Assembly (NCBI RefSeq): GCF_030253575.1
Contig: NC_080568.1
Coordinates: 29,756,001-29,820,000 of the forward strand
DNA length: 64,000 bases
Direction: 5' to 3'
DNA from: Rhododendron vialii
Lineage: Eukaryota; Streptophyta; Magnoliopsida; Ericales; Ericaceae
In this document: one piece after another, positions 4,900 to 55,200 of the stretch
How the letters are laid out: every line of letters begins with the position of its first letter
Numbering within the stretch: the stretch's first letter is position 1
Position numbers and translations under genes: made by a program
Notes under the pieces: generated by a model
Told to the model about the DNA's origin: nothing
Database searches by the model: none
Seen by the model: the letters and a program-made list of their open reading frames with translations, nothing else

Positions 4900-7800
4900 T
4901 CAACCATAGCAGCGAATTGGGTCATTGCAGCCCTTTGCAGCTGACTGTTTCGAGCCTTGACCTCCACCTTTCTCCAAATATTGCTGGTGGTATTCCTCTG
5001 CTCTATAGAATCGCTTTGCTGGAAGAATTTCAGTCACGATCGTCTTATCCTTCAACTCCTTCTGCTTTGCTTCCATTGTTTCTTGTGCTAAACGAGCCTG
5101 CTCTTGGTTGTAGTAGTATATCCCTGAACGGTATTGCGTGCCAACGTCACCGCGCTAGCACAACACAAAATGTCCATGAGTCAAACTTTGGTTTGCAGCC
5201 CAATAACTCAGAGGCAATAATAAGCATGAACTAACATATGCATGCTGCTTAAACTTACATTGTATGAGCAGTTTTAACTCACTACAACTCCATAACAAGG
5301 TCTCAGAAATACTATCAAGGCGTGTTATGAGGCACACATGTAGCAGTTATAACAAAAAAGAAAAGAAGCAAACATTAGGACATATTAATGAAGAGAGATA
5401 AACCAATACAATTTTTTTAATCCAAATATGTGCCAGCTAAACCAAATAGGCAAATACGAAAGGATAATATGCGGTAATAACTAGTAATAAGCACTAAAAC
5501 AGTTGTAACTTGTAACTACAAAGTACATTTCAAAAAGAAATTCATACAGTCGCAACACATGTGCGCAGCAAAAAGATTCATTTACAATTTTTACCAATAT
5601 GATAAGTCAAAAGTTAACGTAATTAAGAAACCATTCCTTTCCAGCGGAACAGGTGAAACCTACTTACTTCTCTATGACTGATATGCAACCCAATAAATCC
5701 TTCATAGTTGACCTATACAATCTTCCACAACTTCATTTATTTAAGAAACCATTTCTTTGCAGTGGAACATATCAATACCTACTTCTCTATACACTTATTC
5801 ATCCCAAGAAACTGCATCCCCAAATCTGCTTTCATGAGAGGAAATTGCCTAACTATAAGTTAATGTTTTTTTTGCCAAAATACGATGCGACCTGCCTTAC
5901 TGGTCCCCTTCTCGGGATTGGAGAGGGTATATTATATAAAATTAAGTACCAGAGAGCCAATTTGAAGAAGTCAACCACAAGATAATAATACTCCAACCCA
6001 AAACAACAAAGAACAATTAACAAACAATGTCAGTATTTAACCAATATAAACAGTAGTATCGATATAGGACCAAGAATTGGAAATAAATCATCCCGGTTAA
6101 CAATTTAGATGTCACACTTGTCTATGCCCCTTGTATTTTCACACCTTATACGACACTAACTTTATCATTTTGATGAGCCCCATATAGCAGAAGCAAGGCA
6201 ACGGCATGACACGTTTAAAGATTGGCCGGGCTGGCCCAGCCCGGCCGTTTTTGGGCCCGTGGCACAAGCACTGCACTTCACCTGTAGACGCCGAGAGGAC
6301 ACGAACACAAGTAACTGTAATTCTTATGTTTCATCATATATTGACAACTTTGATTCAGGTTTTTCATTTTTGGGTTTCACAAAGTCAAGCTTAGGCATGG
6401 GCATGAAAGTAGGAACAACTCGGGCACAACCCGTCAAAGATTGTGGCATGCCGACATACCAGGTTGGTCCCAGACTTGGAGTATTCTGACATAACATAAC
6501 ACGATATGATTGATAGATGCACTATGCTAGCATGGCATGAAGCACGTTAGGTATCAAAATAAACGGCTTGGGCCAACATGGCACGACTCATTTAACAACT
6601 CTTAAGTCTCTAATCGCACCCTAATCTTTTATAAGCTCTTACATCATACTGATACTTCATTAGATGTGTACAGAGTCATATAAGAGCATCTCCGACCCTT
6701 AAAATTTTGAAATCTTGAGTAAAAGCTTCAATTGGTATGAATCGCTCCCATGGATAAACTCAACCTAAGCATACACTTGAATAAAGCTTAATTAATGGCA
6801 TAATTGTAAATTGTAAAGAGCAAAAAAGCCTTAAAGAACTTCGAATAGTTTAAGGCTCATTTCATTTGGTTCAAAATTTGAGTAAAACACAATCTGGTAT
6901 GAGTTTGGGTGAAGGACTAGAATGCGTTTAAAGGAGCTCCTCAAAAATTGGTTTGGAATGTCTTTAACGTTTAAAGGAGTTGCCCAGATTATGGTTTCGA
7001 GTGAATTTAAAGGGTAAGGGCTACAGAAGGTCTACACCCTCTAAAAGATTACACTCCAAATTAAGCCTTATGTCCCAATCAACTGAGATCAGCATAAGCG
7101 ATTACACTCCCAAAAATGAAAAAGCGATTACGCTCCCAAAAATGACAATCCTCACCCGGTATTGGTGCGCTAGGGGCCCTATGGCATAATACCTCTTGCT
7201 GGCAAACTAAAGAAACCTAAATCAAACTACAGATATAAAATTACATTACCCAAGTAATCTAAACTTAGATCTTCCTCTTTCTTCACATCTCCAATTTTGA
7301 CCAGAATTCAGTTTCAGAAAAAAAATAACTAAAATTGAAACCTAGAATTTGAAACTTACAGTCATGTCTACTACTCTGAACACTTCTTTTTCAGTTTTCT
7401 ATCAACTCCTTCGATCCATACAGGGCTTTAATTCAGGACTATAGAGGATCAGTCTCAGGATTAGTCCGGATTAGTCGAGGTGCGCGTAAACTTACTTGGA
7501 TACTTTAAAAACTAATCTTTTTTATCTTAACGCTCGTTTTGAGGGTAACTCACACTTTTCTTCTTTTCTCCCATTATTATACACTAATCTCAATTCAAGA
7601 TTTTTCTCTTTTTATCTTCCGCATAAGACAATTTGCGCACGCATCGAGCGCGCCTGGGCGTATAGTATGTATAGATGTAGAACAAGTACCTGGCGATTGA
7701 GAGTGGTCGGATCGTGCCGGTCCCAGAAAACGGCGAGGAGGTTAGCGTAAGGACAGAGAGACGGGTCGAACTGGATCCGGACGATCTCAGCGTGCTTAGT

Positions 7801-8007
7801 GGATCCGGTGCAAACCAGCTTGTAAGTCGGGTCGGGCACGTGACCCTGCGAGTATCCGACCTCCGTCTTCACCACTCCCTCCACGCGCTGGAAGGCCAGC
7901 TCCACTCCCCAGAAGCACCCGGCTCCGAACTGGGCGAATTCCAGCCCGGGTCCGATCGGACTGTCCGTGTCGGGTTCCAGGGCCGGGTTGGTGGTGTTTC
8001 CTGCCAT
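4900..8007 (-). CDS. MSRA: Peptide methionine sulfoxide reductase A, cytosolic type
   Basis: Two exons on the minus strand. Exon 1 (8007-7690) encodes 106 aa with catalytic Cys31 in GAGCFWG and ends at DPTTLNRQ. Exon 2 (5154-4900) encodes 84 aa beginning [11 protein letters not shown] and ending [11 protein letters not shown]. Together they give 190 aa, normal for plant cytosolic MSRA. The phase-0 junction has a GT donor after 7690 and an AG acceptor at 5156-5155. The C-terminal cysteines (182 and 188) are the usual resolving pair. The enzyme reduces the S-epimer of methionine sulfoxide in proteins, recycling through disulfide exchange with thioredoxin. The open frame extends seven codons upstream of 8007 without an ATG, so MAGNTT is the start; no transit peptide is present. 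The 2.5 kb intron (5155-7689) holds repeats but no gene. The paralogue cannot be stated. Confidence 0.95.
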
Positions 8008-8030
8008 TGTAGCCGTTCTTTCTTCCAAAT

Positions 8031-8033
<3 letters not shown>

Positions 8034-8071
<38 letters not shown>
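8034..8071. repeat. (GA)n microsatellite in the MSRA 5' leader
   Basis: About 19 GA units end roughly 27 bp upstream of the MSRA start codon, giving a CT tract in the sense strand of the gene. CT-rich leaders are common in plant genes. Length is likely to vary between individuals. Confidence 0.9.
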
Positions 8072-8072
<1 letters not shown>

Positions 8073-9251
8073 GACTTTATTGTGTGGAGTGTGGCGGTCC
8101 TGGTGGATATTGCATGTGGATGTTGCATGGATATTGTTCCTAGCCTACTGCGTATTGTAATTTATAGGTGATTGATTTTGTGGGTAAATGCGATTGTTCG
8201 AAGTTACTACTTCGAACCTCTCCTCCACTTCCGGCCAGATACAACCTTGCCTTTAAAAGAGCAAGTGCAGTAAAATCAACAAATGACAAAATCGAAATCG
8301 AAATCGAACGGACCGGTTTACACACCACATTTGTGGCGATCCAACCAAATTCCTCGGACATTCACGTGAGCCCCACATATGGGACCCACATGCAAGGCCG
8401 TCTCTGAACATTTTTTGGGGGTCAGAGATAAACGTCAAGGTTGAGAGCTCTTTCGTTTTCGTAGTTGTACAAGGAGATGAAATAAATAGTAAATCAATTT
8501 AAAAAATGAAAATATTAAATTTTCAAAAATATTGATCATTACAATAATGGAAAGTATCAGTTAAATATAAGTTTTCTTACATATTTCGCGACAAAAGTAA
8601 TAAATACGCTAACATAACAAGATTTTTTTCGTTATAATACCATATAAAATTTGGGGGCCCAAGGTGCTCGCCTTCCTTTAGGGACATATTTGCCCTCATG
8701 GTGGGACCCACGTTTATGTGAGAGGGGTGTTGTTGGACCTGTTCTTAATTATGTTGTGGTTTGGTTTCAAATTCGGTTACGGTTCAATATTGGTGTGATT
8801 ATCATGTAAAACCAAAACAGAAATTGAAGCGATCGATTTTTTCATTATTAAAATCAAAACCATAAACAGGAGTTAAAAAATCGGTTAAAAACATCTCAAA
8901 CGTTTTGAAGTTGACCATCGATTTAAATGAGATCGCCATCTCTAGGGAATAGAACCTATGCTATTGAAACTCTCTAAATAATTCTCAAGGCCTGTATTAT
9001 TTATTACTAGTTTTAAATTGAGATTTCATAGTACTACTAATTAGAGGGAATATTCCAAAAATTGATCTAAAAAGCACGTTAAAAGTAAATTATTGATTGA
9101 CAAAATAAGCTCTACTTAGCCACACACAATGTTGGTTGAACTTGGAACCTTTCCTTGCCGGCCGGGCAGATGCAACCTTGCCTTTGGACCAGTTCCTTGG
9201 TCAACAAGTTTCTTGGTCAATCAAAACAAAATTATTCAAGTCTTAACCCCA

Positions 9252-24689: not shown

Positions 24690-24865
24690 TATTTTTTTTG
24701 CCTATAGTTTTTTTTTTTTGTGGCCATAATTTTTGAATTTTTAGAATCCTTTCATCAAGACAAATGATTTATAAAGGTATTTTTTTTGCCTATAGTTTTT
24801 TTTTTTTGTGGCCATAATTTTTGAATTTTTAGAATCCTTTCATCAAGACAAATGATTTATAAAAA
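24690..24865. repeat. Near-identical 88 bp tandem duplication
   Basis: The unit beginning TATTTTTTTTGCCTATAG at 24690 is repeated at 24778 with almost no change, so it is recent. The unit contains the word TCATCAAGACAAATGATTTA, which belongs to a dispersed family also seen near 16325, 21335 and 59785. Confidence 0.9.
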
Positions 24866-25390: not shown

Positions 25391-27615
25391 TGGCCGTGCA
25401 ACCTCCCGTCTCCAACATGCTAAGGTCACAATCTAACAAAACAGCATCGTATAGTGCTAGAGTCGTGGTGCTCCAAACTCCTGTTTCCAAACGGGTCCTG
25501 CTAAATACAACAGCGAATTTGCTACACGTATCCAATTCATAGGTAGGAAATTGTTGGAAAAACCCTTTGAATTGGCTACTTGTACCAAATTCACAGTTGT
25601 ATTTAGCAGCACCCTTCCAAAATGCAAGATTTTAATCTCTACATAAAACAACAACGTGTGTTGCACAACCTCCCGTCTCCGAGGTCACAATCTTCCAAAA
25701 CTGCACCGTACAGTGCTTACATCGGGGTGATTTACTCTAGCGTCTTCCAAACGCGAGTTCAAACCTTCTGTGGATATCCAAACAAACAGATGAGAGTAAG
25801 TGATTATCCAAACAAATACTCCTATATTTCAAACTTTGGTAATCTTACATATGAAGTCCAAGAGATTATGTTGAGGACTTCAACAGACTTGAATTTTCAT
25901 ATGTCCGGTTCCAAGAGACAACAATAACAATAATAAGAGTAACCAATATCCCCAATCAACGGGGATATAGGAGGATAGGACATGAGAGTAACCTGTCTTC
26001 ATTGAATATATATGTACAAAGTGGCTGTCCAAAAATGACTTTTCATTGAAATAGCGGCCTCCTACCTTCAAAAATCAAGATACTTTAGGGACGTCATGCT
26101 GTGGAATAATGACACAAATCAAACTCAGAACGCATCAAAACACCTTTGCTTCTTTCATTTAAAATCCAAAGCATAAGTACGTAATGCTCAAGGTTTCCAA
26201 TTTGAAGACAGAGCTAGGGAGCAATTTTGAAGGGTGGTTTGATGTTTGAATTATTGCTCGGAGCAACCAAATGGTACCTACATCCTCGCGTATCTATTTT
26301 TACTTTGGTGTTTGAATATATCTCGGAGATGGTCTAAGTGGATTGTCAGTCAATGAGTGGTAGCTACTAGTATATGAGCATTGCTACAAACGCAACATAT
26401 TGTTCAAGAAGTTGTACAATGCTCGCATGTACTATCTGGCATCACATCACAGCTAACAGTATGAAAAACAACCAATCCAGTGACCCAAATAAAGAGGAGT
26501 CATTTTAAACTCCAGTAGAATCCTTGTAGGACTTCTCTCTTTTCTTCAAATCCACCAAAGATATTCGTTGTCCGTGAGGTAGACCGCTTTGGGGATCAAA
26601 TGATTCAAATCGCGTCACAACAAAACCCAAATTCCCCTTGTGAAGTTTCTTTGGCTTATGGATACATTGCTTGGTCTACAAGGACTAGAGCTTTTATCTC
26701 TCTAAAATAGTGTCTTAATAACAAGGTATCTGTCCTTGAAGAACATGAGAACATATCACTATCAGATCCACAAACTTCACTTGACCCATGTGCAGAATCA
26801 CACGATGAATCAGAAAGCCATGCACACGTAGGGCGTGTTTGATAGCAGGTTTTGTTTGGAGGGGATTGGTAATGAGGTGGGATTAGGGTAGGGATTGATA
26901 AGGAGAAGGGATTGGTAAGGAGATGGGATTGATAATGAGTATGTTTGTTTTGCACCGGATTGAATGATAGGAGTATTATCTACCATATTTGTTTAACATG
27001 GGATAGGATTGGATTAAAATATCTATTTCCATTTTTACCCTTATGCAAAATAGTAAAAAAAAATGAAGCAAAATTTAACTCTTCTATTTTTCCCTGTGGC
27101 TGTTATATAGGTATTGCAAAAATAAAAATATTACAAAATTTAACTCTTCTATTTTGCAAACATAGAATGAGCTTGAAAACGGAACAAGTACTTGAAAACG
27201 GAACAAATCCATGCACTGGACATGCTACTAGAATAGTCCACCAAAACAATTGAACTACAGCACTCCTCATGACAGTCATAATGTCGAACCTGCAGGCCAA
27301 CGCCTGGAATAGCAGGTCCAATAATAGCAACAACACAGCACAACTACTGGACTGTAATAGCAATCTAAGCAACAAGTAGGAAACTGCAGCAAAACAAAAA
27401 CAAAAAAAGGAAACTACCCAGTTGCAGATTGGTCACATGTCCACTAACATACTACAACTTTCCAAAAAATAAAAAGGAAACTACTCCATCACTTGGTCAA
27501 TGAGAGAACCACATCACTTGTTTGCACTGCCATTTCTAAATCACATCAAAATAATACTTGAAACAACCAATACAAACAACAAACATAATAATAAACAGTC
27601 ATTTTAAATAAATAA

Positions 27616-27655
<40 letters not shown>

Positions 27656-27658
<3 letters not shown>

Positions 27659-28010
27659 GAATTTTCAAGTAAGGGATCCCTCATTTTAACAAAATGAGGG
27701 ACTTTCATTTCCCGATCAAATTTTGAAAATCCGAACCGTTCAATGTGTGCAGAACGTAATTTTAAGGGTTCTTGCGAGAAATCAGCAAAAAAAATGACCG
27801 AAAAGGGCGTCATCTGAGCAGTTTTTTTTAACCGTTCAATGAAAACTGCTCGGATGAAGCCCTTCCCGGTCATTTTTTTTGCTGATTTATCACGGGGACC
27901 CTTAAAATCACGTTCTGATCACTTTGAGCGGCTCGGATCATTGAAATTCAATCGGGAAGGAGAGTCCCGCATTTTAATAAAATGAGGGATCTCTTACCGG
28001 AACCTAACTC
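27656..28010. mobile_element. Foldback MITE inside a TA repeat
   Basis: The two halves, each about 175 bp, are imperfect inverse copies (GGGATCCCTCATTTTAACAA against TTAATAAAATGAGGGATCTC). The centre is near 27833. (TA)n lies on both sides, 27621-27655 and 28011-28022. It is non-coding and nested in the Harbinger element downstream of ORF1. Confidence 0.85.
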
Positions 28011-28022
28011 ATATATATATAT

Positions 28023-28190
28023 ATGCATCTTACAAAATGAGGCAATAACATGCCAGAGGGATCAATTTGCTCATTCCCATATACATGCATCTTACAAAAT
28101 GAGGCAATAACATGCCAGAGGGATCAATTTGCTCATCCCTATATATATGCATCTTACAAAATGAGGCAATAACATGCCATAGGGATATCA
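28023..28190. repeat. Three tandem units of 62 bp
   Basis: The units begin ATGCATCTTACAAAATGAGG at 28023, 28085 and 28147 and are nearly identical; the third is incomplete. They lie between the foldback MITE and the stop codon of ORF1. Confidence 0.92.
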
Positions 28191-28328
28191 TCCCATTAGT
28201 GTAGCATAATCCTACTTGAAGTCATACTTAATCTTACAGTCATCATAGTTATAACAAGTTCAAGTTCATATTATCCCAATAACATCATCGTTTTGAATCC
28301 CCCAAAAGCTAAGACCATAGACATCCTT

Positions 28329-29357
28329 CTAGATGGCCCCTGCCAGCAAAAGCGCGACCCACCCAACTTGATCCTCCTTTGGAAAGCTAAAAAACAAGTC
28401 CACGCGTTGGGCCTCTTGGACAATTAGAGTGGCAGCCCTCAACCTTTGTTCCCAGTCAAGTGGGTGGTCCATAAGTTCAGCATTAACTTGTTTCCTCTGT
28501 AGGGAGAGGTCCTGAGCATACCCTATCTTGTGACCTATCTCACCCATTCTAGTGTTGGTGTTTTCGAAGAATGTCCCAAATGCTTCAGCCATGTCAGAAA
28601 GTCCCTTAGTTATCCCATCGGCAGCTCTTTTCCTTTTCTTACCAGCAACATTGGAGGAAGGTGGGACAAAGGACTGTCCGCCATGTGAGTTGCCCACATT
28701 AGGTCCCTCTGGCATGGAATAATCCATGAAACTTGTACCCAAACCAGAAGTAGGACTCTCATATCCAAGTTCTTCAGTGGCAGCCTCCCTTTCCATTGCA
28801 GCCATTATATCGGCCGGTCCCTCAGCTAAGTCCTCATTTGCCCTATCATTGCCAAACAAGTGCAGCCATTCTTCAAAGTACGGATGAGGCTTATTTCTCA
28901 TTCCTTTTGCATCAGAATGACTCTACACAAGCGGAAACATACAATGCATTAACTTAAAATCTAAACAACGCGCTAGCAAATTAATAGTTGAGTGTAAGAG
29001 GGGAATGAATTTTACCCTCACAAAGCTTTCCCAGACATCATCACTATCAACCAATATCATCTTTTCCGTGTCATCCCATCCAAAACCACTTAATTTCAGC
29101 ATGTCTTGCAACAGATGGTATTGCTTCCTCCATGCCTTAATTTTTGAATCAATATGAGGATGAGCCCTCAAGTTTGTTCCCGGGAATGCTCTTATGATCC
29201 TTTTCTCACACTCCCCATAAAAGCCAGCCTTAAATTGTCCACAATCTAGCTTCCACTTACTATCCTCATTGACCAAGTCCCTCATACAACCGATGAGGAA
29301 TTCCTCCTCCCTTTTTGACCAAAACCTTCGAGGTTGTTTGCCACTTCTCTTACTCAT
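28329..29357 (-). CDS. PIF/Harbinger ORF1, Myb/SANT-like DNA-binding protein
   Basis: Two exons, 29357-29016 (114 aa) and 28922-28329 (197 aa), join in phase 0 to 311 aa. The N-terminal half is a Myb/SANT-like domain of the type common in plant transposon ORF1 proteins: RRFWSKREEEFLIGCMRDLV, then KIKAWRKQYHLLQDML and WDDTEKMILVDSDDVWESFV. The second exon starts SHSDAKGMRNKPHPYFEEW, has a basic GKKRKRA nuclear signal and a helical C-terminus. Family knowledge: this protein binds the element ends and brings the transposase into the nucleus. The frame is open and both splice sites are canonical (AGG/GTAAAA and TAG/AGT). Host Myb/SANT-like genes domesticated from such elements exist, but its location beside the transposase within the same inverted ends makes it the element's own gene. 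Confidence 0.88.
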
Positions 29358-29698
29358 ACCTATTTTTCAGTCCATAATAACATAGGAATGAAACAGAAAT
29401 ATAAAAGCAGAACTTAAACAAGAAAAAATTTGCAAAATCATGAACATAAACGCAGAGCTTAAACATTACTGAAATAAAAAATTGCAGATTGGTCGAGTGA
29501 ATAAGCATCAATCTCTCTAACATCACATCGAGTAAACATCATTTTCTGCACCAGAATATGACGAAGCAGTAGGTAGAACATCACAAAGTTTACATATTTA
29601 GCGACATTAACAGCTTTCAGCAAACATAGATCTCCAATTACAAATTAAAATAACCACTAGGAAGCTCAAATTTTCATCATCTAGCTAAGAGGTTGGAC
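29358..29698. other. Element-internal spacer
   Basis: Non-coding sequence between the ORF1 start and the nested hAT element. It should hold the ORF1 promoter. No clear TATA box was assigned. Confidence 0.5.
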
Positions 29699-30530
29699 CA
29701 TAGTTTTAAATATCGGCCGATACGGTACGTATCGGCCGGTTCGTACCGGTATTTGGGACTCCCGGTTCGGATATAGGCCGGTATAACGGTGAGACTGAAA
29801 TTCACAGGCAAACCGGCCGATTCCTGATACGTATCGATATGTAACCGATTTTTGGACCGGTTCGGCCGGTACTGCCGGTAAGTATCGGTTCGGGAAAATT
29901 AAAAAAAAAAAACAGAAAAATGGTTGATCCATTAGCTGAATGTGTACTACAATATGAGGCTAAAGATTAGGCATGCGACTAGAAGAAGTGATGAGGAGAG
30001 AGATGATCATTTTAATCCCATTAATCTTGATTACATCTTTGACGAGGATGATCCATTAGCTGAATGGTTGCAAGAGGAAGAGCACGCAATATTGGATGAT
30101 GTAGACAATTCAGAATGGTTGGATACAGGTGATACGCAGAATCCCCAAAATGTAGACCTATCTGAAAACAGTTCAAGTGGAGGTCGTGGTTTGAGTCCAT
30201 CTGGTAGTGGCAGTGAGGATGATGATGGTCCTAATGGTTGGGAAACACAAGATAATATAGTTGCATTTTTCTCATATTTGTAAAATCTTATTGAGTTGCC
30301 GGTTTTGATAAATTATCGGATATTTCACGTGAAGAGAATGGGCTATTACATGTCATAAATTAATTAAAATGTGATAATTTAAGCCAATGTTTGGGGCAAA
30401 AGTATATTTTTCAAGTTTTATACATGATGATTTTTAAAAATTCACGACCGCGACACCCGATTCCCGCGACGTATCACCGATATGTCCCGATACCGATATA
30501 CCGCGACCGATACCGCGATTTAAAACTATG
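29699..30530. mobile_element. Nested non-autonomous hAT element
   Basis: Perfect 13 bp inverted ends CATAGTTTTAAAT / ATTTAAAACTATG are flanked by an exact 8 bp target duplication GGTTGGAC (29691-29698 and 30531-30538), the hallmark of hAT insertion. Subterminal DNA is packed with CGGCCGATA / TATCGG-type motifs on both sides. It is 832 bp long and retains only the tail of a transposase frame. It is inserted 22 bp past the stop codon of the Harbinger transposase, so it does not interrupt coding sequence. Confidence 0.95.
29942..30283 (+). pseudogene. C-terminal remnant of a hAT transposase
   Basis: The frame reads YYNMRLKIRHA and then DDHFNPINLDYIFDEDDPLA and EWLQEEEHAILDD, the type of acidic tail found at the C-terminus of plant hAT (DUF659-type) transposases. 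The DDE/RNase-H core, BED finger and dimerisation core are missing, so it cannot transpose anything. The word GATCCATTAGCTGAATG occurs at 29921 and again at 30049, probably a scar of the internal deletion or a small duplication. Orientation is opposite to the surrounding Harbinger genes. The family assignment rests on the short tail motif. Confidence 0.6.
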
Positions 30531-30559
30531 GGTTGGACACATCTCTAGCTCTCTTGAAA

Positions 30560-31969
30560 CTAAGCAACATTGACCCCACCATTTTGACCCCTATTTGCTT
30601 GCCACTCATTGAACATTTGATTTGCCAATGTGGCTCTCCATTCACTCCATTGGTCAGAGGGCTCAACCACATCAATGTACTCATCGTCTTCCTCATCTGG
30701 TTGTGGCAGGGGTGGTTGCATAAATTCCTGCGCGAAAGGATCATTGGGCCTCTCACGAGTGATTAGATTGTGAAGAAGGCAACAAGCAGTGATTATCCGA
30801 CATTGAGTTCTGATTGGGAAGAATGAATGCGACCTAAGGATAGCCCACCTGGCCTTACGTATGCCAAAAGTCCTCTCAACGACATTACGTGCTGAAGCAT
30901 GCTTCATGTTGAAGAACTCTTGGGGGGTAGTAGGGGCAGGACCACCTATGTAAGTGGACAAGTGGTAACGTTGACCTCGATAAGGTGCTAAGAAACCTTC
31001 CCCATTAGTGTACCCCGCATCTACAAGATAATAGTGACCTGTTGAATTTTTAAAGCAATAAGTACGAGTTATTAATGTGGTTATATATACATTACATTAG
31101 TTTGTGGGAATTCATACCAGTTGGCACTTTCAACCCGTTTTGCCTACTGACAGCATCTCTAAGAACTCTAGAATCCGATGCGGATCCTTCCCATCCGGGC
31201 AACACATAAATAAATTGGGTGTCTGGGGCACACACACCCAATACATTGGTAGCAATTTCACCTTTCCTCGTTCTATACCTTGGTTTATCTACCGCAGCAA
31301 CACGAACATCAATATAGGTCCCATCTAATGCCCCGAGGCAATTCTATGAAGACAAAAAAACTAAGGGTCAACCAACATACAAATGAGATACAGTTTGAAA
31401 ATTGTGTTAAACAAAGTGTTGCTACATTTTAAAAAGTATACCTGAAACCACTTCCACCTTTCATCATTGGAGTTTGCCGGCACTGGTTCTGGTACCTTAA
31501 GAAGGACGTCTTGGAGCCGTATAACAGCCTTAAGCACGTCATTGAAATACCTACTTACGGTTTGACCACTCCTTGTAAAGTCAAACTTAATCTTACGATT
31601 CTTTAAGTGGTGTGCAAGTGTATATAAAAATATCCCAACTTTCTCCTCCACCACAACGAACTTCGAATCAGTTAATCCAACACCTCTGACTAGTGTACAA
31701 AGCCTCATGAATGTATGAATATCCACTCGAAGTTGTTCGTGACAATTTACCTCACTATTTCGGATCAACCTATTTAAATTGTCTAATTGGTTTCGAAAGG
31801 GATGTGGTGACCTTTCGACATCCAACCTATCTAAACTCTTGCTTAAGGCAATGTGTATGACTACGACAAACAAAGAACAAGCATGATTGATGGAGGCGAC
31901 AAGATGTTGAAGGGCTATGAATGCATGAATGAGACCCATCATGCTATTTGGTTCTTCATTATTGTCCAT
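30560..31969 (-). CDS. PIF/Harbinger DDE transposase (HARBI1-like nuclease)
   Basis: Three exons, 31969-31442, 31343-31118 and 31038-30560, join in frame to 410 aa over canonical GT-AG introns. The N-terminal exon has the helix-turn-helix-like region and [33 protein letters not shown]. Exon 2 starts [15 protein letters not shown] and contains [18 protein letters not shown]. Exon 3 has [20 protein letters not shown] and [17 protein letters not shown]. The predicted catalytic triad is Asp183, Asp233 and Glu306, and Asp258 sits in the conserved VDAGY motif. The enzyme would cut and paste the element at TWA sites together with ORF1. No stop or frameshift is visible. The ATG at 31969 ([11 protein letters not shown]) was chosen; one 22 codons upstream is also open. 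Confidence 0.93.
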
Positions 31970-33429
31970 CTTAAAAATCACAAACCAATGAAAACAGGAG
32001 TTAATCATGGGGCAAGTAGCTAATGAAATCAACACTTTTTGTTAATGAGCAAATTGAGGTTTGAGATTCACATTTGCTTCAGAACAATGCAAGTGCATCA
32101 TGCACTAAATCAACAAAAGAATTTTTCTTTCGCTCAAACTTTCTATATCAGTAATTATAAATTCAACTCCAATGAAGAAAGTTTGATAAGTTGAGTTGGA
32201 TTAAGTTGGTGTACATTGTTCTGAACAAATAAGATTTTCCTATATCTGGGATGCCAAAGAAATTACTTCCCTACACACTAAGCAGCTGCAGAAATTAAGT
32301 ACGAACTGTGAACCCTAATACTTACGAATCAGCAAACCTTATGCCCCCTGGGTTTATCATGTAAGATCAGAATGAGGGAAATTGTGCAGTAGATGTTTCA
32401 ACATTTTTTAATGAGTTAAAATAGCAAGATCATCAAATTGTGAACAAACTAAAAACATGAATAATCATAGTACTTAAGTTTTCCCAACCAATAAAGCCTA
32501 ATAAAATAGAGAGAAAAAAATTAAGCCAATACCCAAATAACTTATGAGGTAGAGAATACAGAAGGTTCCAAACAGGCCTCATGTTAAATGAAAAATATCA
32601 TTATTGGAAAAAACTGAGAAAAAAAAAACCAAATATGGGCTAAAGTTCGAGTAACTGGTTCAGGATGTAGCTTAAACATTGGTTGAGAATGGAGCTTAAA
32701 CATTACTGAAATGGGGTTCCTTGATTTTGTCAGAGCAGAATTTGATGTTACCTTCCAAAAACCCCAAAATTTATGAGGTAGAGAATACAGAAGGTTCCAA
32801 ACAGGCCTCATGTTAAATGAAAAATATCATTATTGGAAAAAACTGAGAAAAAAAACCAAATATGGGCTAAAGTTCGAGTAACTGGTTCAGGATGTAGCTT
32901 AAACATTGATTGAGAATGGAGCTTAAACATTACTGAAATGGGGTTCCTCGATTTTGTCAGAGCAGAATTTGATGTTACCTTCCAAAAACCCCAAAAAAAT
33001 TGCACTAGATTGCAAGAAATTCCAACGGAAGAATGGTACTTTACCGCCGTTCGTAGAGCAAAGAGTTGCCGGTGGAGAGGACGATCTGGAGGAGAAGACG
33101 ATGCCTTTTTCAGCGCCGCACTTCTTGCTCTGGAGGAGAAGACGCGCGAATTTGGTTCTAGGTTTTCTTCATTTATATAGATAGATGAGGGTACTTGTGT
33201 CAATCTTTGTAAAAAAGGAGGGCATAAAAGTCTTCCAACACCTATCCCAGGGGGATAGGATTGGTAGTAACACCCCCCCTTGGGTTGGGTAATCCAGCCA
33301 ATCTGTGGGATTCACAATCCCATGGGACTCCTAATCCCTTCCACCAAATTCAAACCAAACAAACAATTTCAAGTCCAAACCACTTTATTAGTCCAATCCC
33401 AAGTCCTTAACTGGCTATCAAACATGCCC
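31970..33429. other. 5' non-coding part of the Harbinger element
   Basis: This stretch holds the putative transposase promoter and the right inverted end. A tandem duplication at 32542-32997 is listed separately. A GAAGAAGACG-rich stretch at 33030-33175 has open frames but no recognisable family. Confidence 0.5.
32542..32997. repeat. Tandem duplication, period 229 bp
   Basis: Two almost identical copies start TTATGAGGTAGAGAATACAG at 32542 and 32771 and each ends CCTTCCAAAAACCCCAAAA. The near identity indicates a recent event inside the transposon, upstream of the transposase start. Confidence 0.93.
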
Positions 33430-34708
33430 TTAAATAACATATATGATACCAAATTTTAGCCGGGGAATTTTCTCCTTCAAAACACCATCCAAGAGTATTG
33501 AGTGTGCAGAAAATTACAACACGAAGCACATATTTAGTAATAGAAACTTTTAAAACGAAGATTTAAGGACTCATTGAGGTTAAAAATCACGCATTAATGT
33601 ATTGGATTATAGAAAAAGTAAAACATGAAAAAATTTCCATTACATTCTGCAATGGATAGCTAAGAACACTTAGTTCAAAAACTTAAAGTTGCAAGGAATA
33701 ACCTACCCGACACTCATGCCTTCTTCAATATCAGTCAGGGAAACTTTGTCCCCAAGCTCAACAACAAACTGCAGCCATCAAAAGAAAAGATACGGTCAGT
33801 AGATGTTGTATTTATGAATGGAAGTTTCAACTAAGTCTGTTCCCACATAATTAGACTATCTAAAGAAAGATATTTCATTGCTAAAAATATAAGAATATCG
33901 CTTTAAAGAAGAAAGCAGATAGAAGTATGAGTGCACACCAAAGAAAGAGCATATCCAGCAAACTGACTAGAGGACCATGGAAAATACACCTTTGCAATTT
34001 GCTTAACATTTGTAATGTACTTTGCATCTTCAGTGTTTGGGTTGATGATCTTCGTGCACCTTGCCACCTGTTTGCTGAGACCATGAAATTGTTATTACAA
34101 TCAATTACCAAAAACAGAAAAGAAAAAAAATTAGTCAAGTAGCTAGAAACCATACTTGCAGGGGTTGCTCCTCCTGCATCATGTGCTTATCAGATACAAG
34201 ATCCCATTGGCTGGGTGCAGCTAAGCCAGTGTCAGACTCCTTGATACCTATGGTAAGAGAGAGACCAAATTTTTAGTTTCAGTATACTCAGGTTCAGATT
34301 CCATTTATCCGAATAAAGAAACATATAAGGATAATATAAACTTTTCCATAAGGTGATTTGGCAAAGAACTTGCCATAACACTAATCAAAGCTTAGTTAAA
34401 GGACACTCCATTATCCAGCCTGGAGAAGGATACATACCGCACAAATCATTGACCTTTTTGGCCATTTCCTTGATTTCCTTCTCCACTTTCTTGATGCTGG
34501 TAGAATAAGGTCCCAAACCATAGAACCAACTTAACAGAAACACAGCAGCAAATAAGATGCTGCAACCATTGCTCCATCAAGCTACTTTAACAGAAAACAC
34601 TTCAACAACATAAATATTAACAATATTCCAAGACACAAAAGGGAACCCAGTTGATAGCAGCAAGAGAAACAGCAATACCACATGACCAAAACAGAAGGCA
34701 TATGAATA

Positions 34709-41594: not shown

Positions 41595-42729
41595 GGGGGG
41601 TGTTTCGTAACCTTTTAATTTCAGTTTTGATTTTTGTTTTCATCACTTTTTTGAAAACTAAAAAAGAAAACTTGTTTGGTCATATTTTTACTTTTTTGTT
41701 TTTAAAAAACGTTTTTAGAATTTCTGAAAATTATGAAAACTAAAAAAAGGAGTTTTACACTGTTTTAAAAACAGAACTTCGGGAGTCGAATGGGCCATCG
41801 CGGCTACATCTCTCTCTCTCCTATTCGATGGCTTCGAAGCTGGCTCAGAAGCGAGCTCCCTTGGAAGAAGATCCTCCTTCCAACAACCGCCGCCGCCGCC
41901 GCGACAAAAACCCCAGAACCCAACTCGCCGTCGGACTCCAACTCAGGATTCGACTCCGAAACTCCCTCGGCCCAACCCTCTCCCAGCGCCTCCGATTTCA
42001 CCATCAAGCCCATGGAAAACCCAAAAAAACCCACTTCTAAGCCCTCCGCCAAACGCCCCGTTACAGAGACTGATAATGGCAAGAAAAAGAAGGCCAAGGT
42101 TGAGGAGGAGGAGAAGAAGTCCGGTGGCTCAGTTAATCGGTTGTGGAGCAAGGATGATGAGACTGTGATACTTAAGGGGATGGCTGACTTCCAGTTGAAG
42201 AAAGGGGCAGACCCTTTTTCACTCATGGGTGAGTTTCATTAGTTTATTAGGAAATCCTGTCGAAGTTTCGAGGAGTCAGTTGATGGATAAGGTTAGGAGG
42301 CTGAAGAAGAAGTACGAGATCAATGCTAGGAAGGGGAGAAGGGGGCGGACCCGGGTTTTTCGAAGCGACATGGAGAAAATTATGCAATTGGTCAAAAAAA
42401 AATAAAAATTTGGTGGAAGTAGAAAGTTAATCAACTAAAAAGACCAATCATATTGGTGTTAATTGTTTGAATGTGACATCTTCAAGAAAATATATATATT
42501 TTTGTTTGTGGAACTTTTTTCTTTCATTTTTTCTAATTTCAGTCAATTTGAAGAATAAAAACAAAAACAAAAATGATACTACCAAACATGTTGTGTTTAC
42601 AGTTTTTATTGTTTTCAAAAAGATTATTACCAAACATGTTTCCTGTTTTTGTTTTTATGAAAAACATAAACCTGTTTCTATTTCTAGTTTTTTGAAAATT
42701 GAAAACTGAAAAGGTTACCAAACGCACCC
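41595..42729. mobile_element. Pack-type Harbinger/Tourist element carrying a GeBP copy
   Basis: The left end GGGGGTGTTTCGTAACCTTT pairs with the right end AAAGGTTACCAAACGCACCC; both continue into AAAACTGAAA-type subterminal sequence. TAA lies at 41592-41594 and 42730-42732, fitting a 3 bp Harbinger duplication (one extra G at the left border). Instead of a transposase it contains a degenerate host gene fragment (41828-42405). An element that encloses captured gene sequence between its inverted ends is a Pack-type transposon. Confidence 0.8.
41828..42405 (+). pseudogene. GeBP/Storekeeper-type (DUF573) transcription factor fragment
   Basis: The frame from 41828 starts MASKLAQKRAPLEEDPPSNN. It then shifts to another frame that reads SPSASDFTIKPMENPKKPTS, KKKKAKVEEE and [27 protein letters not shown], ending at a TAG (42240-42242). 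A second shift recovers [20 protein letters not shown] and a stop at 42405. The order (acidic/proline N-terminus, lysine-rich nuclear signal, LWS-DE-x-ILKGM helix, KVRRLKKKY helix) is that of the plant GeBP/Storekeeper DNA-binding domain. No introns are seen, but most genes of this family lack introns too, so a retrocopy cannot be told from direct capture. Two frameshifts and a stop make it non-functional. Confidence 0.82.
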
Positions 42730-43345: not shown

Positions 43346-45590
43346 TACGAGTGCATATCTGAGGTGTTGAACACAAATTTCGAATCTGCAAAAAAGACCA
43401 AAAAAAATGTTGAACAAGAGTTAATATTTTATTGATGTATGAAATTAGGGTTTATAATCTCTAAGGTATTTTCTAATCAAAGAAAATAAAGTTTTCTGAT
43501 TCTTATCTTCGGTTGTTAAAACGAGAACTTGATGCTGTTTGTGGAGAAGTTGATGACTTGGGTTGAAACTTCTTCGAGGCTTTGAAGCTTCGATTCGAAG
43601 AACTTCTTGGGCTTGGTTTTGATCTTCAGAGCTCTAGAGTTTGTATGCTTCAATGTGTAGATGGATCCAATATGAGAGGGAGCACCTCTATTTATAAGGA
43701 CATGGGATGGAGATTTCGTCCCTAACCTTCCATATTGATCTCTTTAAGTATTTCTTTTATTGAATTTAAAAATAATAATGAGTATTTGATAATTACCTTT
43801 TCTTTTCTTTTCTTTTAGAAAAATGTAATTATATATAAAAAGATATATTATTATTCACCAAGTAACCTAATTTGACTGGCCGGACTTAATAAAATAATAA
43901 CTGTGTCATTTTGACGCGTGGTACTATTTGATTGATCCATTTACATGCCTTTGACTTTTGACCATGGACACTTGGCATTAGTTGATTGGCCCGTCCATGA
44001 AACTTTGACTTTGACTTTGACTTACAGGCATTTGACAACATTTGATTGGCCAATTTGTATGCCCTAGCAACACGTGACAATCTGTGGTAGGCTAGAATTT
44101 TACATGCTTACATGAGATCCCAACATCCAAGGCGGACGCACATGGGTACAAGGGAGGGTGGCCAACCCCACTGGCTGCCAAATTTTCCTTGGGATAGGTA
44201 TAATTTTTATCCCATTTTTACTAATTTGACCCCAAATTTTCATAGGAATCTATATAATTTAGCTATTTTGACCCCACAAAAAATTTCTAAGTTGCTTCAA
44301 CTTGTTTTAAGTACATAGAAATCTCAAGCGTTCTCTTCTTTTCGAAAGTTGATAATGCTAGAAATGAGACCATCATGTATTATTTTTCAAATATAACAAT
44401 TCTTTTGAGGCCAATTATGAGGAAAAAATGAATTACTAGTGCATATTGATCTTATAATTAACCTTTTAATTTAGTTATTTTTGGACTTGTGCATAGAAAA
44501 ACTATATTGCATATGAATCCAATTTTTGACCCCATTGACCACAAACCAAAATTCTTGACGGCCCTGCCAACATCAGTCCCGCATCGACCAGATTACAAAA
44601 GCTACCTGTGAGGGAGTCTTATATATATTGAGCACCACCTGCCTCAGCTGCGAGCATGAGCTAGCGACGCTACCGAGCTGCTGTGAACCGAGCTCGAGCT
44701 TGGCGAATGGGTAGCGAGCCGAGCTTGAATGTGCCAAAGCTCGGCTCATTTGCAGCCCTAATCACAAAGAAATGGGAAAGATACAGAGAGAGAAATTGAT
44801 CTCAGGATATTTTGAGAACGGCATTGATTCACCGAAGTCGTCCAGACTTTTAGCCCGACGAGGGCCGACTTAGTGGAAGTATTTTTCATGCAAAAATGCA
44901 CTCAATATATGGTCCGTTGCTTATCGATCAGAGTTGGTATTGTTAGCACTAAAATGGTCTGCTTGTAGTGGAAAGTCGGCCCCTCTGCAAAATCCCACGA
45001 CTTGCCAAGGAAACGATACCTGTTCGTTTGTACTCCATGTGGTTAGCAGAAAGCGGGCCGGAAACAAGTACACTGAGCTTGAAGTCCTTTCGAACTTTTC
45101 GATTTCTCCGCGATGTTCTTGATCCCTAACGATTCACTCAAGATGTCGATCTGGATGGGATGATTGATCGGGTGTGATGCTAGCTACGATGTAGTAACAA
45201 ACTGCTTATTTTGAAATATGATATAACTCTTTGGCGTGCCAAAATAACTAGATTTCCTTGCTCTATGAACTCTTACGGTCCAACTTCACAAGATCGTCTC
45301 CAACAATATCTTCATTTGTTTTTTTTGACCAAATTGTGTTAGTTCTTGATTCCGCATGTGGCACGCTATGTTCTTCTTCAATCATAGGAAATGCTACAGT
45401 GTTGGAACTTAGAAGTGAGAAAAGCTCAGCGATATTAACAATAGCGAGTCTAATGCTAGCTATGTTGATGAGCAAATTAACGATTAGAAGGACGAGAGAG
45501 GGGAAAGGCAATACTACCGCGGTTCCCTTAGTTAAGGATTCGTTGCGAATATACCTAATGGAGTACTGCAGAACATTACCATAGCTTTGA
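43346..45590. other. Gene-poor region
   Basis: No gene is supported. At about 43925-44060 there are several TTTGAC / TTGAC words (W-box cores), probably chance plus local duplication. At about 44690-44760 a scrap rich in CGAGCTCGAGC and GCTCGGCTCATTTG resembles sequence at 48095-48350 and is likely an old transposon end. Confidence 0.45.
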
Positions 45591-45600
45591 GATACAAAAA

Positions 45601-45994
45601 TGCTACAGGTACCGAAATTGGGGGACCGAAATCGGACCGACGGCCGCCGGCGGGCCGTCTCCGGCCACCGGACGGCCGATCCGAGCCGTCCAAAAATTCT
45701 AAAAAAAAAAACCGAGGAGGCCGGCACGGGAATCAACGTCATCCGAGGTGTGTAGGGTGCTTGATCGGAGCACCCATTTTCGTGTGTATATGTGTATATG
45801 TGTATATACACACGAAAAGGGGTGCTCCGATCAAGCACCCTACACACCTCGGATGACGTTGATTCCCGCGTGGGCCCCCTCGGTTTTTTTTTTTAGAATT
45901 TTTGGACGGCTCGGATCGGCCGTCCGGTGGCCGGAGACGGCCCGCCGGCGGCCGTCGGTCCGATTTCGGTCCCCCAATTTCGGTACCTGTAGCA
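45601..45994. mobile_element. Near-perfect foldback element
   Basis: Two arms of about 190 bp are almost exact inverse copies, from TGCTACAGGTACCGAAATTG at the left end to its inverse at the right. They are separated by a short (GTATAT)-type centre near 45800. The arms are GC-rich, unlike the surroundings, and so similar that the element is young. GATACAAAAA is found at 45591-45600 and at 46002-46011, with 7 bp (ACACTCA) between the right arm and the second copy. A Mutator-like foldback MITE is plausible. Open frames on both strands are mirror images, not genes. Confidence 0.9.
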
Positions 45995-46167
45995 ACACTC
46001 AGATACAAAAAGATATCATTCACCAAATTCTCTTCTAGATCAAGCATCAGTATACATAATCTAGACCACGAGACGCAATGATCTTGGCCTATAAAAGTGA
46101 GAAACTACTGAGCATTCTTTTCAGGATATATTCCAGTTTTGAAGGATCAAATGAGTCATGTCTCTGA

Positions 46168-52225: not shown

Positions 52226-55200
52226 TCAACAGCGGGAACCCTTTCTGCAGTTCAGTGCACCTGCGCCGATTGTCATTGAACCGACGACGGAAGATGGCCT
52301 TGCACCCAAACTTGAGGCTCTGGCATAACTTGATGAAGCTCCAGCACCAGATGGGGTGAAATATGCGCCGTTCAACATCAGGTCTCCTTCTGATCTCCAA
52401 TTCCAGTGCTTCCATTTACTCTCTGGTGCATCCTCATGTTTGGTCACCTAGTAAAATATAAAAATGATGGAAAAACATTTAATTTTTTGAATAATTTCAT
52501 TGGAAAATATTCACCTAGTAGTGTTTGAATTTACCTAAGGATATCAGGGAAAATCACTATCACCTTTTTTACTAGAAAACTAGGGGATATCTAGCATATT
52601 TTTTTTGGGCTTTATACATTACATATCTTCCTTTGTCTCATAATTTTAATCCTTTTTAGAAAATTGTGTCATTTTTTGAATTCAAAACTATAAATAAATT
52701 GTGTATAAGCTATTGAATTTTTTTTTTTTTAAGAAAGGCTTTCCATAGAGTATTAAAATAATGGCTCGAGAGAATATTTTATTGAATTTTTTTATTAAGA
52801 AAATGGCATGACTTTTTCATAAAGTGCTAAAATAACGGGACTAAGGGAGTCCATGAGGCGAAAAAAACCCGAGTTTGATTATGAATTAAAAAAATTGCAT
52901 GGAACCATTGTATCGAAAACCCTTTTTCCTACATTTTTTTGCAGTCAAACTCGCTGATAAATTTAGTTTGACAAATGTCAAATCATGTGATTGAGAAAGA
53001 AGAAAAAGAGTTTTGAGGATAAGCGAGGTGTTGCCTTGTTTGAAAGAAACAAGGAATGAGGCCTTTAAAAGGACTCGACGAAGAACCTTAAGATTGATCT
53101 TCTAAATATTAGTTAAAGTATGAGTAAGCTATGGTTCAAACACATAAGAACATCAAAAAGTAAAATGGACAAAAGAAACAAGGAATGAATATGGTATATT
53201 TGTCTCACCTCTTTGCTGAATCTGTTATTAGGGGCAAGAAATCTGTTGCCTTGGCTATTGATAGTGGGGGAAGCACTCCCTCCAATGGCATACATTTCCC
53301 AATGGGTGTAGTCATTGTTCACCACATGGAAGTAACCATGTCTACATCTGCATGTGTCAAGAAAACATCATTAATAATAAAATCTAGCGGCGTCTATTAC
53401 ATTTAAAAATGAGAGAAGCACAGCGAGAGTCGTGTCATTCTATACGAACATTCTGTTTCGACACGTTACGCTGTGATTCATCGTTGTGTAACAAAAATGA
53501 CATGTACTCTCCTCACCATATCATTTCTCAAAACCCATTTTAGTAACCCAATATGTTTTTTTCTAATCATAAATACACTTTTTAGTCCTTCCTTATGAAA
53601 AGGGTTCTTTCTCATAATGAAATTGAAAAATAAGTTTCAAAATCGGTCATCAAACAAAATTTCACGAAAAAGAAAGTGTTCGCAATGTCTAATCCTTCTT
53701 CCGTATTTGATTTTATTTATAACTCGGGTATCCCGACCCAACTTACGCATTCTTGATTTGGTACTTTACCTTGGCATTCTTTGAACAAGACCTTCCCCAA
53801 AGTGATTAAAAGCAATCGTGACTTGCATATTCTTATCCTGAGAATACGAATCGCTGTGGCCCAGCAGCATGACCTTGTCATGGTGCGTCATGTAATTGTT
53901 CGAAATGGTGATAGCCGTGGACCCATGAATCGCATCAATCAGCCCGTCCTTACAGTTCGACAACGAGCAATGGTCCACCCACACGTGGCTGCCCCCGAAG
54001 ATCGACACCCCGTCGCCGTCCGATACCGTCCTCCACCCGTAGTGCCGAGGGGAGTCCCGCACCATAGCGTTCCCTCCCTGCTTGCAATCGTGGATGTTGA
54101 TCCCGTGTATGATGATGTTGGTCACGAATTGCACGGTGATGCACGGCCCTCCCGCAATGTGGACGCTCGATCCCCGGCCGTCGATCGTCTTGAACGAGTT
54201 CATGATCAGTTCTTCCTTCAGTTTGATCACCATGTCGCGCGCGAAGATGATCCACAGCGGCTCGTCTTGGATGACTGCGTGGCGGAGGGTCCCGGGTTTG
54301 GGGTTCACCACGTCGTGGTCGCTGGAGTCGGTGACCACGTAGATTTTACCGTCTCGTCCTCCAACGGCATTCTTGCCGAACCCAATGGCGCAGTCGGCGA
54401 GCCGCTGGCGGTTTTTCTCCCACTTTGAGTCGCACCGCCAGCAATCGTCGATGGGATTTCCGGTCCCGCATGAAAAATATCCCAAGTTCCTCCTCGATGC
54501 ATTGATGCTCCTGTACATGAGAAAATGTTACGCATTCAAATATTAATAGTGTAGGAAATTTGACAGTGGAGATTTTGTAAATATTTAGAATCTAAATTTC
54601 TAGATTCAAAAATTACAAAAGACTACTAGCTTTCGTATGGCATTATTTATCATAATAATACTATGATTGGTTAATTAATTGGAACGAAATGGCCACTTTT
54701 TGGAAGCTCGTTTCCTTTCAATTGTTTAAAAAATGACGGAATGTACTTCTTCTTTTTTTAAAAAAGAAAAAAGAAGAAGCATCATTCAGCATTTTAGGGT
54801 CTTTCCATTTTTTTGTTAATCATTTCACCCAAACAAACACTACCTCTGAGTATTTTACTTATAATTAACTACCTAGGTACATTAATGAAGTCATTTTGGT
54901 AGTATACATACGTACATAAACAGTATTTGGTTTTTGTTTAATTCGATAGGCTATCAATTTAATTGGGACCCCGTAAACAGGTGGTGATAGGCTATCAATT
55001 TAATTGGGACCCTGTAAACAAGTGGTGAAATTAGTTTCCAAGAATCAATCGAGAATGCGTAAACTAACTCGGACACTTGAGTTATAATAAAAATAATGTC
55101 GAGATTACGTATACTCTTACCTGTGTACATCTTGTACTACTAGCTCAGGGTCTTGAACTTCTGAGGAGGAAATGAGTGCGGGGGTTAGGACAGAGAGGAG

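Follow-up and report, generated by a model that had tools for sequence, protein, structure and literature searches.

A well-preserved element of Rhododendron vialii is very probably a coding-complete PIF/Harbinger transposon with recently amplified short relatives

PIF/Harbinger DNA transposons encode a transposase and a second protein, ORF1, and we describe here an element with both genes in a 64-kb stretch of the Rhododendron vialii genome (C12:29756001-29820000; hereafter the window, to which all positions given without a contig refer). The element occupies positions 26831-33429, with both genes on the minus strand, and is defined by its ends, by a second long copy and by empty sites. We consider it highly probable that it is a coding-complete PIF/Harbinger transposon with proven ends and a proven insertion, which has recently amplified short relatives elsewhere in the genome. 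It is a well-preserved and unusually well documented member of a known superfamily, not a new kind of element. Its sequence supports autonomous coding capacity and makes the element a candidate, and only a candidate, for activity. Relatives were sought in 532,647,506 bases on 13 contigs.

The left terminal inverted repeat (TIR), GGGCGTGTTTGATAGC, lies at 26831-26846 on the plus strand, and its inverted partner, GGGCATGTTTGATAGC, at 33414-33429 on the minus strand; both are 16 bp long, with imperfect pairing over 22 nt (86%). A motif scan of the window for the 16-bp end returned these two sites only, with 0 mismatches each. Genome-wide, the exact 16-mer GGGCRTGTTTGATAGC occurs 57 times versus 0 for a reversed control, which confirms the inverted ends that an earlier note on this DNA had placed at the same coordinates. 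Exact facing pairs of the 16-mer no more than 20 kb apart number 11 in the genome, both long copies counted. Both ends read GGGC[AG]TGTTTGATAGC, in agreement with PMC2213677, where PIF/Harbinger TIRs are given as 14-25 bp long and containing G(N)5GTT. The element is real, and its boundaries are exactly 26831 and 33429.

The element is preceded by GTA (26828-26830) and followed by TTA (33430-33432). Its right flank matches two places on C8, about 10 kb apart (C8:35513553 and C8:35523559), with identities of 88% and 83%. In the aligned C8 paralogs the left flank runs into the right flank without the element, and they represent two paralogous empty sites; the paralogy covers ∼115 bp of the 600 compared on the left (79%) and ∼600 bp on the right (83-88%). 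One empty site (L081) reads CACAC-TTA-AATAAC and the other (L080) CACAC-TAA-AATAAC, versus GTA-element-TTA in the window. Since the empty sites carry a single TTA or TAA, the mismatched flanks are best explained by one later substitution: most likely, the insertion produced a TTA duplication, and the left copy was later altered at one base. The TTA of the first empty site and the TAA/TAA flanks of the second long copy both fit the 3-bp TWA duplication of the superfamily. Among ten elements with both flanks read, the 3-bp flanks are identical in nine (TAA in five, TTA in one, TTT in two, ATA in one). TWA is thus not strict in this wider set, because TTT and ATA duplications occur; they were observed in the relatives L072, L076/L077 and L079 (TTT in two, ATA in one).

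The second long copy lies at C2:7875575-7892703, on the opposite strand. Because its flanks are unrelated to those in the window and carry TAA on both sides, it fixes the ends of the element. Outside indels, the two copies differ at 34/2029 and 42/3075 positions, that is, at 76/5104 (1.49%). If the rate is 7e-9 per site and year, this would correspond to about 1 million years, and to more in a woody plant. Premature stops in both genes, the transposase and ORF1, leave the C2 copy dead. Exon 1 of its ORF1 is also interrupted by a ∼12-kb insert bounded by CACTACAAGAAA and TTTCTTGTAGTG and a 3-bp TAC duplication; its ends suggest a CACTA-type element. Between the two transposases there are 9 synonymous differences over 269.5 sites and 6 nonsynonymous ones, including one stop in C2, over 960.5 sites; for ORF1 the counts are 5 over 189.5 and 10, again including one stop in C2, over 743.5. 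With two outgroups, nine of 18 differences in the transposase region could be polarised: four changes, three synonymous and one nonsynonymous, fell to the window copy and five to the C2 copy (2 synonymous, 2 nonsynonymous, 1 noncoding). Counts this small allow no firm conclusion on constraint. The earlier note held that its reading would fall if there were neither copies with matching ends nor an empty site, and both were found: transposition is attested by the C2 copy, the 668-bp copies described below and the C8 empty sites.

The transposase gene consists of three exons on the minus strand, at 31442-31969, 31118-31343 and 30560-31038, the last including the stop. Spliced at GT-AG introns, it yields 410 amino acids with no internal stop or frameshift. 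Pfam assigns the product to DDE_Tnp_4 (E=2.1e-26, over the curated cut-off), and relatives on Streptomyces plasmids likewise place it among IS5-related DDE transposases. A search against sequences of solved structures gave one match for it (E 0.43), not to a transposase. ORF1 is read from two exons on the same strand (29016-29357, then 28329-28922 with the stop) joined across one GT-AG intron; it is open throughout its 311 amino acids. Exon 1 carries a Myb/SANT-like DNA-binding domain (Myb_DNA-bind_3, E=4.7e-9, 37.5 bits versus a cut-off of 23.6), as the second open reading frame of PIF/Harbinger elements does. The same structure search gave three matches for ORF1 (best E 0.22), none of them a transposase. 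Hence the proposal of the earlier note that both proteins can be spliced without stop or frameshift holds for all three introns, and a check for a missed frameshift found none in either protein. Upstream of the transposase, a TATA box candidate, TATATAAA, was located by consensus match at 33172-33179 on the minus strand; the same stretch recurs in four inspected short copies.

A catalytic triad of Asp183, Asp233 and Glu306 had been proposed for the transposase. D183 and E306 are where they were said to be; D233 is present too, although it is unlikely to act as the second catalytic Asp. D183 and D233 are encoded in exon 2, and D258 and E306 in exon 3; all four residues are kept in the Streptomyces plasmid relatives (4 fetched of 11 records). 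Among 33 genomic loci, 30 of them readable, D183 and E306 are kept in 30/30, D233 in 29/30 (one Asn) and D258 in 27/30 (one Asn; at two loci overlapping matches give both Ser and Asp). The last two loci are ambiguous. Conservation fails as an arbiter between D233 and D258. D233 stands in the context SASDSR and D258 in LVDAGY, 48 residues before E306 (47 between). D258 is the more likely second catalytic Asp, because of its spacing to E306 and its position after a strand-like stretch, and D183, D258 and E306 would then form the active site. D258 may also belong to the N3 motif of IS4/IS5, a further point in its favour. A search of the literature for DD47E together with Harbinger found no paper. 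A catalytic Asp standing after a strand-like stretch is described in PMC4482050.

Might the two genes instead be a domesticated host pair resembling ALP1/ALP2? PMC4671723 relates ALP1 to PIF/Harbinger transposases, and also reports that in ALP1 the DDE triad is replaced by DGA. A pair of this kind would have no TIRs or mobility and a changed DDE triad, and none of this was found here: the element has TIRs and a target duplication, its empty sites exist, another insertion of it has decayed, it harbours nested inserts, and its acidic residues are conserved. We regard domestication as extremely improbable.

Few close copies of the genes were found. Besides the window, the transposase gene has one close copy, on C2, followed by matches on C7 (74%, partial) and C11 (72%), in 55 matches from the best 40 of 88 candidates. 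ORF1 likewise has a close copy on C2 only, followed by C8 (69%) and C7 (68%; 12/12 candidates scored). More distant transposases are numerous. The last transposase exon is stop-free in 100/150 scored matches, the window's own included (best 150 of 326 candidates), and the rarity of intact autonomous Harbingers, to which the earlier note had appealed, is therefore a poor argument. Among the scored matches, exon 3 of the next lineages reaches no more than 79% identity. Out of 29 genomic loci retrieved with the transposase, nine align over at least 350 amino acids with no stop in the aligned columns; two of the nine show one TAG in the last-exon table, and the frameshift check for these loci is incomplete.

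The ends of the element recur in a family of short copies. A first look gave 644 candidates for the left end, whereas the right end gave 126 (best 40 of each scored). Eleven short-copy loci were examined, and both ends were found within the fetched stretch in six: five copies measure 668 bp and one measures 730 bp. Each of the remaining five loci has one end that is missing, diverged or beyond the fetched stretch. The five 668-bp copies are 98.5-99.4% identical to each other (mean pairwise difference ∼1.0%), have perfect 3-bp duplications in 5/5 cases (TAA in four, TTA in one) and share their 16-bp ends except for one base in one right end. The 730-bp copy is ∼84% like them and has a TTT duplication, as does a sixth copy of the 668 type, which carries an insert of ∼2 kb. 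Each 668-bp copy joins 338 bp of left end to 269 bp of right end through ∼61 bp mostly not found in the window element. To the window copy these ends are 92-93% (BLAST) or 93-94% (MAFFT) identical; over the terminal 60 bp the values are 93-95% on the left and 97-98% on the right. The high mutual identity and the perfect duplications show recent mobilisation of the 668-bp copies. If rates were equal, they would have moved later than the long copies diverged, since their mean difference lies below the 1.49% between the latter. A 3.1-kb element with exact ends, C12:17789788-17792883, has ends 67-71% alike and no transposase or ORF1 match; we regard it as an older relative.

Being only ∼93% like the window copy, the 668-bp copies came from another parent, to which the window copy is related. 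They may have been mobilised by another PIF transposase, from either a lost or unassembled parent of their own or a different PIF lineage, and we judge the chances of this to be evenly balanced. The divergence of their ends fits such a source, as do the lack of a transposase copy closer than C2 (among the best 40 of 88 candidates) and the many open PIF transposase exons elsewhere in the genome. It is opposed by the near-identical 16-bp ends of the five copies and by the distance of the next lineages in exon 3, the part compared. Somewhat unlikely, in our view, is a cross-mobilising orphan pair, in which the window copy, the only coding-complete member left of its subfamily in the genome, supplies proteins in trans for the recent amplification of a 668-bp family that has lost its own parent, much as Pong acts on mPing. 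The earlier note had envisaged the element as a source of mobilising activity for Tourist-like miniature inverted-repeat transposable elements (MITEs) nearby. The coding capacity is there and a short family exists elsewhere in the genome; with ends ∼93% alike, its mobilisation by the window copy is only possible. Nearby MITEs did not appear: a strict scan of the window found 0, as it did in every one of 20 shuffles, and a loose scan found 2 versus 0-3 in 20 shuffles, which is not above chance.

The window copy itself carries two inserts and a duplication that the earlier note lacked. An 832-bp insert at 29699-30530, whose site is empty in the C2 copy, is flanked by the 8-bp GGTTGGAC at 29691-29698 and 30531-30538, and is labelled hAT-like from this duplication. 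It lies 29 bp past the transposase stop and 341 bp ahead of the ORF1 ATG; one of its open reading frames gave no Pfam match over cut-off. Part of the insert recurs with 99% identity in three pieces at C4:13772316, 13780303 and 13788290, spaced 7987 bp each, a pattern that resembles a tandem array with units of ∼8 kb. A foldback MITE with inverted arms (∼405 bp, 27608-28012), also absent from the C2 copy, lies 316 bp past the ORF1 stop; its ends are blurred by TA repeats, and it has dozens of similar copies in the genome (best 40 of 4229 candidates scored). Upstream of the transposase, a 227-bp unit is tandemly duplicated at 32542-32996 and single in the C2 copy.

Several points weigh against a coding-complete and possibly active transposon. 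The hAT-like insert is the best reason for doubting activity, because it sits between the genes, where a terminator and a promoter are expected, and it may disturb transposase termination or the ORF1 promoter. Together, the inserts and the duplication lengthen the element from ∼5.1 to 6.6 kb; in yeast, larger elements and altered ends mobilise less, according to the consulted part of PMC10288884, and such a size effect would hamper the 6.6-kb element and favour the 668-bp copies, which came from a sister element that did not turn up. The ORF1 differences from C2 suggest no clear constraint, 9/18 transposase-region differences are ambiguous in polarisation, and D233 is conserved slightly oftener than D258. 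Within the window alone, the paired ends are weak proof, because 16/100 shuffles contained at least two sites at a limit of 3 mismatches; proof comes from the genome copies. A coding-complete but silent relic, in which the hAT-like insert or host silencing ended expression and the frames have not yet decayed, is about as probable as its opposite; it is compatible with the family assignment and competes only on activity. The place of the hAT-like insert, the tandem duplication and the death of the other of the two close gene copies found speak for such a relic, while both intact frames, the intact splice dinucleotides of all three introns and the TATA candidate speak against it.

Overall, we suggest that the coding-complete transposon would work by the two-protein cut-and-paste established for Ping/Pong and Harbinger3, in which ORF1 binds DNA and the DDE protein cuts (PMC2836001, in the part consulted). 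By analogy, ORF1 would bind the element ends and recruit the DDE transposase, which would excise the element and reinsert it at a short target, with 3 bp duplicated. The two proteins of the window presumably catalysed the insertion, and the window copy may still be able to mobilise itself or members of the short family.

Other features of the window were also recorded. Pieces of host genes correspond to a papain-type protease (2375-2941), a methionine sulfoxide reductase (7612-8076), a GeBP-like protein (41769-42242, just under cut-off) and a pectate lyase (53766-54527). At 45263-46038, two overlapping open reading frames on opposite strands encode almost identical peptides (RESTSSEVCRVLDRST...), a sign of a long inverted repeat. 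An array of ∼20-bp repeats at 281-745 matches itself also in inverted orientation, and at 24690-24863 an 88-bp unit occurs twice with 100% identity, probably by recent duplication.

With this element the genome gains a defined candidate source with exact ends, a second copy with measured divergence, empty sites and a small family of young short substrates, and the matching of autonomous elements to the short families that they drive becomes directly testable there. Existing knowledge of PIF/Harbinger is unchanged. Comparisons with known systems are made by features and not by tree, and extend to the consulted parts of the sources. In MtPH-A5/A6 of Medicago truncatula, too, the transposase gene precedes ORF1 and mostly has two introns; these elements also share a 4-6 kb core, a TIR with G(N)5GTT (MtPH-A5 GGGKGYGTTTGTTTGAGGGTT) and internally deleted derivatives (PMC2213677); unlike theirs, the TIR of the window element continues GATAGC. 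PePIF1 of Phalaenopsis shares a three-exon transposase (427 amino acids) with DDE, a two-exon Myb/SANT ORF1, a 3-bp TTA duplication and MITE-like copies, but its ORF1 is named first and its TIR is the 19-bp GGGYCYGTTTGGGGCAGCT (PMC6327408). It has 66 putative autonomous copies versus two close copies here, and its MITE-like copies are mostly 200-300 bp versus 668 bp (PMC6327408). Rice Ping/Pong/mPing resemble the window element in carrying DDE and Myb on separate proteins, in the two-protein requirement predicted for it and in having a short element that is mobilised in trans; their activity is proven, whereas the window element is a candidate for activity (PMC2836001, PMC10288884).

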